DNA of 64,000 bases. Origin: Phycisphaerae bacterium (GTDB lineage: Bacteria; Planctomycetota; Phycisphaerae; UBA1845; Fen-1342). Position 1 is the first letter of the stretch; every line of letters begins with the position of its first letter. The position numbers and the translations under genes were made by a program. The notes beneath the pieces are model-generated. The model was not told the origin of the DNA and made no database searches. It was given only the letters and a program-made list of their open reading frames with translations. This document shows, piece after piece, positions 4,531 through 6,298 of the stretch. The stretch spans positions 1 to 64,000 of the forward strand of contig JAJVHV010000009.1 of NCBI GenBank assembly GCA_022072445.1. The letters are read 5' to 3'.

Positions 4531-5247
4531 ATGCCGCTGCTCGAGATTAGCGGGCTGGACGTCTACTACGGCGCCATTCACGCGCTGCGCAGCATCGACC
4601 TGGCGGTCGAAGAGCGGCAGATCGTGACGCTCATCGGCGGGAACGGCGCCGGCAAGTCGACCACGCTGCGGACGGTCTCCGGCCTGCTGCGCCCGACGCG
4701 CGGCTCCATCAAGCTCGATGGGAAGTCGATCGTCGGGCTGCCGCCGCACGAGATCGTCCGCCGCGGCGTGGCGCACGCCCCCGAGGGGCGCGGCATTTTC
4801 GCGAACTTGACGGTGGACGAGAATCTGGAGATCGGGGCCTATTCGCGGCGGGACGATCGTGCGGCGATCGACCGCGACCGCGAGCGTTCGCTGGAGCTTT
4901 TTCCGCGGCTGCGCGAGCGCCTGCGGCAGAACGCCGGCACGCTCTCGGGGGGCGAGCAGCAGATGCTGGCGATCGCGCGGGCTCTGGTGGCGCGGCCGCG
5001 GCTGCTGCTGCTCGATGAGCCGTCGCTGGGCCTGGCGCCGCAGGTCGTCAAGACGATCTTTCACATCATCCGCGAAATTAACCAGGCCGGCACGACCATC
5101 CTGCTGGTCGAGCAGAACGCGCACATGGCGCTGCACGTCGCCCACCGCGGATACGTGCTGGAAGTCGGCCGCATCGTCAAGTCCGACGACGCACGCAACC
5201 TCGCCAGCAGCGACGACGTAAGGAAGGCATACCTCGGCGGGGTGTAG
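4531..5247 (+). CDS. livF: branched-chain amino-acid ABC transporter ATP-binding protein LivF
   Basis: A 238-residue second ATPase that pairs with LivG. Walker A is GGNGAGKST, the signature is LSGGEQQMLAIARAL, Walker B is LLLLDEPSLGL, and the switch histidine is replaced by Gln-Asn in LLVEQNAHMAL, as usual for LivF. The ATG directly follows the livG stop codon. It ends the operon, and repetitive DNA begins at its stop codon. No hairpin terminator is seen immediately downstream. Confidence 0.94.
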   Translation: MPLLEISGLDVYYGAIHALRSIDLAVEERQIVTLIGGNGAGKSTTLRTVSGLLRPTRGSIKLDGKSIVGLPPHEIVRRGVAHAPEGRGIFANLTVDENLEIGAYSRRDDRAAIDRDRERSLELFPRLRERLRQNAGTLSGGEQQMLAIARALVARPRLLLLDEPSLGLAPQVVKTIFHIIREINQAGTTILLVEQNAHMALHVAHRGYVLEVGRIVKSDDARNLASSDDVRKAYLGGV

Positions 5248-5397
5248 GGCGGCATGTGGGATGTAGGCGCGGCGTGTAGGGGCGAGGCGATATGTAGGCG
5301 TGGAAGGGCGGCGTGTGGGATGTGGGCGCGGCGTGTAGGGGCGAGGCGATATGTAGGCGTGGAAGGGCGGCGTGTGGGATGTAGGTGCGGCGTGTGC
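5247..5397. repeat. 59-bp tandem repeat, about 2.6 copies
   Basis: A 59-bp unit starting GGGCGGCGTGTGGGATGT is repeated from 5247, 5306 and 5365, the last copy partial. It begins at the last base of the livF stop codon and carries no plausible gene. Open frames crossing it have repetitive, low-complexity translations. Confidence 0.8.
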
Positions 5398-5404
5398 CCC
5401 TGGT

Positions 5405-5498
5405 CAGACCGAAGGTCTGAGAGAGAGTAGCCGGGGGTTGTCGCGAAGCGACACCCCCGGACGATCGCGCACGTCGCGCGGAGCAGCCCGAAGGGCTG
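5405..5498. repeat. REP-like hairpin cluster, left flank of the transposase gene
   Basis: Three short hairpins: 5405-5419 (CAGACC gaa GGTCTG), 5431-5460 (arms CCGGGGGT and ACCCCCGG type around GTCGC/GCGAC), and 5484-5498 (CAGCCC gaa GGGCTG). The last two recur in the same order and inverted orientation on the other side of the transposase gene (6044-6111). This matches the way REP palindromes flank RAYT genes. Confidence 0.75.
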
Positions 5499-5508
5499 GA
5501 CGGGAGCG

Positions 5509-5961
5509 TCAATCCCACGCATATCGCTCGTCAAGCTGAAGCCCGTATTTTCGCAGCACCGCGCGCACTTCGTCCTGAAAGCTGAGCGCGTGATGATGCG
5601 CGGGCTGTCCGGCGATGTAGGCGCGAAGCTTGTCCGCACCGGATTGGCCGATGGAGAATGCGAAATACCCGTCTTGCCAGGCGAAAACCGCGAACTCGCG
5701 GCCTCGCGATTTCATCCACTTGGACGTGTCGCGCTTCAATTCGAGCATCAGTGTCGACAGAGCGACCGTTTTCCCGAGGTTGACGAAGAGGTGGACGTGA
5801 TCGTCGGTGCCGCCCGCGGCCAGAAGCACGGAGTCGTGGTTTCTGCAAATCCCACCCATGTAGGCGTAGAGGTCGTCGCGATAGTGGGTAGGGATGAGCT
5901 TGGCGCGGTGTTTGGTAGAGAACGTAATGTGCAGCAGGATCCGCGTCAGCGTCGTGGCCAT
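5509..5961 (-). CDS. IS200/RAYT-like Y1 transposase
   Basis: A 150-residue single-strand DNA transposase of the HUH/Y1 (PF01797) family. The HUH pair is H55-V-H57 in DDHVHLFV. The catalytic tyrosine is Y115 in KLRAYIAGQPAHHH, and the FAWQDGYFAFSI block before it is a family hallmark. The frame is intact and of normal length. There is no second (TnpB) gene. REP-like hairpins in inverted orientation flank it, so a domesticated REP-associated transposase is more likely than an active IS200, but autonomous mobility cannot be excluded. The downstream stop is at 5509-5511, only 10 bases from a hairpin. Confidence 0.85.
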   Translation of the reverse strand: MATTLTRILLHITFSTKHRAKLIPTHYRDDLYAYMGGICRNHDSVLLAAGGTDDHVHLFVNLGKTVALSTLMLELKRDTSKWMKSRGREFAVFAWQDGYFAFSIGQSGADKLRAYIAGQPAHHHALSFQDEVRAVLRKYGLQLDERYAWD

Positions 5962-6043
5962 GGCGACAGGATACCGCGCGGGTGCCGCGGTGCGGCATCT
6001 ACCGATTCGGCGTGCCCGGGGATGTCCCGGCGCCCCTGGCGTG

Positions 6044-6137
6044 CAGCCCTTCGGGCTGCGGTGCGCGTACGGCGCAGCGGTCCGGGGGTGTCGCTGCGCG
6101 ACGACCCCCGGCTATTGGCGTGCAGCCCTTCGGGCTG
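6044..6137. repeat. REP-like hairpin cluster, right flank of the transposase gene
   Basis: Hairpins at 6044-6058 (CAGCCC ttc GGGCTG), 6082-6111 (CCGGGGGT ... CCCCCGG) and again at 6123-6137. The stretch 6044-6111 is the reverse complement of 5431-5498 apart from the variable stretch between hairpins and a few substitutions. Together the two flanks form a roughly 710-bp unit around the transposase gene. Confidence 0.75.
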
Positions 6138-6171
6138 CGGCGCGCGAACGGGCACCGAATGTGCGTCCGGA

Positions 6172-6298
6172 CCGTGCGCGGATGGGCGGTGCGCGGATGG
6201 GCGGTGCGCGGATGGACCGTGCGCGGATGGGCGATGCGCGTACAGGCGGTGCGCGGATGGACCGTGCGCGGATAGGCGATGCGCGTACAGGCGGTGCG
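6172..6298. repeat. 15-bp tandem repeat with 45-bp higher-order period
   Basis: Eight consecutive 15-bp units (consensus CCGTGCGCGGATGGG) with variants CGATGCGCGTACAGG at units 5 and 8 lie between 6172 and 6291. Later units follow an A-B-C order, giving a 45-bp super-period. Both strands stay open through it, because 15 is divisible by three, but translations are simple-sequence. I see no gene between 5962 and 6423. Confidence 0.8.

Follow-up and report, generated by a model that had tools for sequence, protein, structure and literature searches.

An IS200-like Y1 transposase gene between inverted hairpin modules in a planctomycete, and a likely mobile-DNA identity for the Acido-Lenti-1 family

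Introduction

In a stretch of 64,000 nucleotides from a Phycisphaerae bacterium (assembly GCA_022072445.1, contig JAJVHV010000009.1; hereafter the window), a Y1 (HUH) transposase gene lies between two oppositely oriented clusters of hairpins. What is such a locus: a unit that disperses REP-like repeats, an ordinary insertion sequence between its own ends, or a transposase gene beside sequences that act as RNA? A sequence-only reading had taken it for a REPtron-like unit, of the kind described for REP-associated tyrosine transposases (RAYTs) in gammaproteobacteria. Two published descriptions bear on the question. TnpA_Y1 subclass 1.2 has been described as near IS200, low in copy number, devoid of IS properties and of typical IS200 ends, found mainly in Cyanobacteria and Bacteroidetes, and scored "no" for REP (PMC6006769). 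Acido-Lenti-1 (Rfam RF01687) was proposed in 2010 and judged probably RNA by its authors (PMC2864571).

Results

Two inverted three-hairpin modules enclose the transposase gene

The gene, an ORF of 150 aa on the minus strand (5509..5961), matches Pfam PF01797 (Y1_Tnp) with 84.6 bits. It is enclosed by two inverted modules of 98 nt, both facing the gene, one downstream on the plus strand (5405-5502; model R2, 76.5 bits) and one upstream on the minus strand (6040-6137; 82.1 bits), which are identical at 76 of 98 positions. Read towards the gene, each starts with a small hairpin with a GAA loop (H1). A linker of 11 nt, whose last letters are GTAG or ATAG, leads to a large hairpin with a one-base bulge (H2), and after a spacer of about 20 nt comes another small hairpin (H1'). 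From sequence and folding, the downstream module comprises H1 (CAGACC-GAA-GGTCTG) at 5405..5419, the GTAG foot on the 5' side of H2 at 5427..5430, H2 at 5431..5460 and, on the gene side, H1' (CAGCCC-GAA-GGGCTG, placed by folding) at 5484..5498. In the upstream module, on the minus strand, folding placed H1 at 6123..6137 and H1' at 6044..6058, sequence placed the ATAG foot at 6112-6115 (6115-6112 as read on that strand), and both placed H2 at 6082..6111.

Between the two modules, the outermost 56 nt (H1-linker-H2) were identical at 46 of 56 positions and the foot plus H2 at 31 of 33, with differing linkers. Folding of both clusters was much stronger than that of shuffled versions (DNA z -6.0 and -3.9), and in a whole-genome search the upstream module matched the downstream one at E 9e-17. 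These data bear out the bracketing of the gene by oppositely oriented clusters of alike hairpins that had been read from the letters. The accompanying estimate of clusters of about 68 bp with few differences was roughly right, but the full module spans 98 nt and its linkers diverge; what that reading had overlooked were the GTAG/ATAG foot 5' of H2, the small, gene-proximal third hairpin and the exact distance of 11 nt between H1 and H2.

Directly outside the modules lie tandem arrays (5246-5395 and 6169-6298; a 59-nt unit in 2.5 copies and a 15/45-nt unit). Arrays next to modules recur in relatives, as repeated small hairpins at locus L036 and short degenerate repeats at L142, and at loci L112, L130 and L131 whole units are repeated beside the modules. 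A match to the Guanidine-III riboswitch at 5434-5482 (17.7 bits, E 0.7) was discarded as a chance match.

The transposase motifs fit TnpA_Y1 subclass 1.2

The window protein passed the NCBIfam IS200 model (65.5 bits, cut-off 55) and failed the RAYT model NF047646 (25.1 bits against a cut-off of 80). It carries DHVH, WQ and YIAGQPAHH, and so all three motifs that characterize subclass 1.2, DH[IV]H, WQ and Y---Q--HH (PMC6006769). Among 80 relatives, DH[VIL]H was present in 72, [WF]Q-x-GY in 79 and Y---[QH]--HH in 73; the class-2 RAYT motif Y-[IV]-x-x-N-P was found in none of the 80. Beyond the Y motif the proteins have a conserved C-terminal stretch, which may correspond to the specific C-terminal domain of about 30 aa given for subclass 1.2. 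Judged by its motifs, the enzyme fits the TnpA_Y1 subclass 1.2 type; it is not a canonical RAYT. Its key motifs, length and low copy number agree with the published subclass; unlike that subclass as published, it comes with REP-like modules and is widespread in planctomycetes and their relatives. As judged from the titles of their records, the relatives belong to Planctomycetota, Verrucomicrobiota, Kiritimatiellota, Lentisphaerae, Acidobacteria, Bacteroidota, Armatimonadota and others.

Further units lie elsewhere in the source genome

The 5.25-Mb source genome holds six matching units of the window's type (E 5e-4 to 2e-52): the two that flank the gene and four solo composite units. All of them keep the 11-nt spacing between H1 and H2, and four of the six have a GTAG foot. 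The solo units include at least two intergenic ones, each lying between convergent genes (argS and a bacA-like gene; a DNA methylase and an ABC transporter gene). The sequence-only reading had proposed to look for further hairpin copies, to see whether most were intergenic, and to look for a clean IS200 end pair at other sites. Copies were found, comprising the four solo units and those of other types described below, and the placement of at least two solo units is as that reading anticipated; a search of the source genome turned up no other complete element bearing an IS-like pair of ends.

The gene itself is single copy, with two paralogs 43% and 34% identical to it. The 43% paralog, on contig C1, is flanked by a separate inverted module, which has GTAG feet and is of a different sequence type. 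An apparent gene-less inverted pair of this C1 type lies on contig C42, where the matches are weak (E 0.1-0.9) and the pair was recognised by the common GGAATGTAG linker. A third unit type, with a CCGTGGGC stem, occurs on contigs C20, C8 and C4 (loci L185, L224 and L225); no cognate transposase gene was identified for it in the source genome. Given these distinct types at the paralog and elsewhere, repeat types tend to be specific to one gene, a feature known from REPtrons.

We also considered H1 alone as the dispersed REP and rejected it: allowing up to two mismatches, GCAGCCCGAAGGGCTGC gave 20 matches and its reversed control 23. The five matches that had no more than one mismatch all lay inside composite units. 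Beside the solo unit on contig C5, a direct repeat of about 75 nt with GC-rich inverted tracts (L004:1601-1810) is unrelated to the unit.

YAG-footed hairpins face related genes across phyla

The flanks of related genes were usable at 77 loci, where we scored GC-rich, YAG-footed hairpins of 7 bp or longer. Such hairpins were present upstream on the gene strand at 58 of the 77 loci and downstream on the opposite strand at 57; inward-facing ones stood on both sides at 46 and on at least one side at 69. A comparison of 64 feet in 400-nt flanks singled out TAG (28 + 28 loci in the expected orientation versus 8 + 7 in the reverse) and CAG (30 + 30 versus 8 + 8). The AGC foot scored too, because it captures identical hairpins with a one-base shift. 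Among 901 control stretches, TAG hairpins were found in 6 on the plus strand and 9 on the minus strand. The geometry was also conserved: in 87 of 115 units the distance from the H1 loop to H2 was fixed at 17-18 nt, and the relatives' units had a further small hairpin after H2, with a peak at 28-29 nt. The YAG hairpins at 69 of 77 genes contradict the published description of the subclass as REP "no", rather than the membership of these genes in it. Cross-locus inverted-repeat scoring proved uninformative as a control, because palindromic hairpins look alike across species, and the foot and orientation test was used in its place.

The unit is the reverse complement of Acido-Lenti-1

Our unit is, in reverse complement, the consensus of RF01687: H2, then CUA, a 12-nt linker and an H1 whose loop is UUC. 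The two descriptions thus concern one unit read on opposite strands, which in the case of RF01687 has been described as a candidate ncRNA. The window's own unit (6082-6137) matched the family weakly, with 24 bits (E 0.007) where the gathering score is 37. In the source genome, a unit of another type scored 51 bits, and on contig C8 a match of the third type exceeds the cut-off. In relatives, units scored well above the cut-off, at the coordinates of independent matches to R1, our covariance model of the unit, and on the opposite strand. Matches above the cut-off were present in 14 of 27 family genomes versus 0 of 14 control genomes. Around 72 Y1 loci, 38 of the 40 RF01687 matches within 150 nt of the gene lay on the predicted side and strand, and 23 of the 72 loci had an adjacent match. 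A literature search of incomplete coverage found no paper linking Acido-Lenti-1 or RF01687 to a transposase.

Units are dispersed in relatives, many of them as inverted dimers

R1 found at least 91 copies in genome G021, at least 46 in G014 and at least 25 in G002, and RF01687 matched 121 times in G021 and 58 times in G014. Many of the copies in G021 form inverted dimers of about 200 nt, bounded by an outer H1 at each end, in which the hairpins are kept and the spacer varies in sequence at similar length. Among the RF01687 matches listed, 48 of 52 pairs at most 400 nt apart converge, in 12 genomes, mostly with a start-to-start distance of 135-170 nt. Six of the G021 dimers (L200, L202, L203, L205, L206 and L210) are part of a longer repeat that measures about 440 nt and occurs in both orientations, with common flanks of about 85 nt on the left and 120-160 nt on the right; other dimers have unique flanks. 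Base-pair counts on the unit alignment were set aside as covariation evidence, because the units had been picked for perfect stems.

One orthologous convergent gene pair was found between G021 and G020, a genome of the same genus with neither gene nor units. In G021 a dimer lies between these genes and their distance is 384 nt; in G020, which has no dimer there, it is 22 nt. This difference is compatible with insertion, and would fit either gain or loss of the dimer. No base-exact empty site was found in G020, and exact borders were not seen because this genome is too diverged and the G021 spacer holds some 180 nt besides the dimer.

The dimers raise the possibility of an ordinary IS200/IS605-type insertion sequence with MITEs, the modules being element ends and the dimers internal deletion derivatives mobilised together with the parent that carries the gene. 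The likeness is real: the transposase is related and passes the IS200 model, DNA hairpins are in use in both cases, and gene-less dimers look like MITEs with inverted ends. Yet the ends of IS200/IS605 elements are not inverted repeats, and such elements come in many near-identical copies, often with tnpB, whereas the element here is one copy whose paralogs are as distant as 43% and 34% identity, the nearer one with its own module type. With a subclass that is of low copy number and lacks typical IS200 ends (PMC6006769), we consider an ordinary insertion sequence unlikely.

Presence of the unit tracks the transposase gene

In the family genomes, R1 matches numbered from 2 to at least 91 in the 17 genomes with the gene and 0-3 in the 10 without (Mann-Whitney p 2e-5), so that relatives lacking the gene have few or no units, a comparison the sequence-only reading had proposed. 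Across 294 genomes from the phylum, 66 had both RF01687 and the subclass-1.2 gene, 9 the motif only, 18 the gene only and 201 neither. Collapsed to genera, a crude way of handling kinship, the numbers were 46, 6, 12 and 142, respectively (p = 5e-28). In one genome, G035, RF01687 matched at least 16 times, with several inverted dimers among the matches, and there is no subclass-1.2 gene at E 1e-10; gene loss or another enzyme are both possible.

The association bears on whether the hairpin units act as RNA, as small RNAs, terminators or mRNA stabilisers, their place beside a transposase being secondary. Such a role would agree with the sRNA class of RF01687 in Rfam and the judgement of its authors (PMC2864571), with stems that are kept as spacers drift, and with copies that in some cases directly follow genes. 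But the units on the two sides of the Y1 gene lie on opposite strands, and dimers likewise pair inverted units, so that a sense RNA from one side would have an antisense counterpart on the other; moreover, the presence of units follows that of the gene. We therefore regard a primary RNA role as distinctly unlikely. Taken together, anatomy and co-occurrence suggest that Acido-Lenti-1 is mainly a mobile DNA unit and not an RNA gene; transcribed copies may also act as RNA hairpins. That the clusters are mere chance or low-complexity GC-rich sequence beside a transposase, an idea to which the GC-rich flanks with tandem arrays lend some colour, is refuted by the folding, the six genome matches and the like geometry across phyla.

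Discussion

With good confidence, we interpret the locus as a REPtron-like unit of TnpA_Y1 subclass 1.2, in which the DNA substrate of the enzyme would be the 46-56 nt made up of H1, the 11-nt linker with its YAG end, and H2, and in which Acido-Lenti-1 would be mainly mobile DNA. The inverted, gene-facing layout across phyla, the fixed geometry, the gene-less solo units and dimers, the co-occurrence and the RF01687 identity of the relatives' units are observed. Against this interpretation stand the low copy number in the source genome, the sub-threshold RF01687 score of the window's units, the failure to find a base-exact empty site in G020, and the 18 genomes with the gene and no RF01687 match together with the 9 showing the reverse.

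Models for the enzyme's action are offered by the TnpA of IS608 and ISDra2 and by E. coli TnpA_REP. By analogy, the enzyme may bind the hairpins when their DNA is single-stranded, for instance on the lagging strand. The YAG foot preceding H2 may serve as its guide, in the way that GTAG does in E. coli REPs, and the enzyme would cut and join at the unit borders. The inverted dimer would then be the mobile form, REPIN- or MITE-like, and the gene-carrying copy, low in number, would look like a dimer that holds the transposase gene in its middle.

How close is this to the known REPtrons? A low-copy Y1 gene, inverted REP-like hairpins and further copies in the genome are all present. As in the RAYT systems (TnpA_REP, class 2, with GTAG REPs and REPINs), the Y1 gene is single copy, the hairpins have a GTAG-like 5' foot, dispersed copies are often inverted dimers, and each gene has its own repeat type. 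Unlike a RAYT, the enzyme is IS200-like, with Y---Q--HH instead of Y--NP; unlike RAYT REPs, the unit combines two hairpins, set at a constant distance, with a third one, and its foot often lacks the leading G and reads TAG or CAG. Compared with a canonical REP family, GTAG is found in four of six units and solo units number four here, with tens to more than 100 copies in relatives. TIRtrons and their TIRYT genes, as presented in the text of PMC3733652, share a Y1 gene, inverted and partly self-complementary repeats, repeat families in some cases and an occurrence that includes Acidobacteria; in that text, TIRYTs are said to keep RAYT-type motifs, and no three-hairpin YAG module is described.

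The earlier REPtron reading is thus right in kind, with an enzyme of a different subclass and a repeat already in Rfam under another identity. Its RAYT-like arrangement stands and its RAYT does not, in view of the model scores and the subclass 1.2 motifs. The proposed dispersal finds support in the copies elsewhere, but the repeat is rare in this genome. Nor is a REP system in a planctomycete new by itself, as GTAG REPs with tyrosine transposases had already been reported in Rhodopirellula baltica (PMC3733652).

What the locus adds is a set of REP-like repeats for a transposase subclass published without them, and a likely identity for an orphan Rfam family that annotators still call ncRNA, reported as late as 2026 as one of little-known function (PMC13298647). 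Acido-Lenti-1 is probably the single-stranded DNA substrate of a widespread, supposedly REP-less transposase subclass, spreading as fixed-length inverted dimers in planctomycete and related genomes; it would represent a separate REP/REPIN-type lineage with a two-hairpin recognition unit. The locus thereby provides a defined candidate enzyme-substrate pair for the study of REP-type spread outside gammaproteobacteria.
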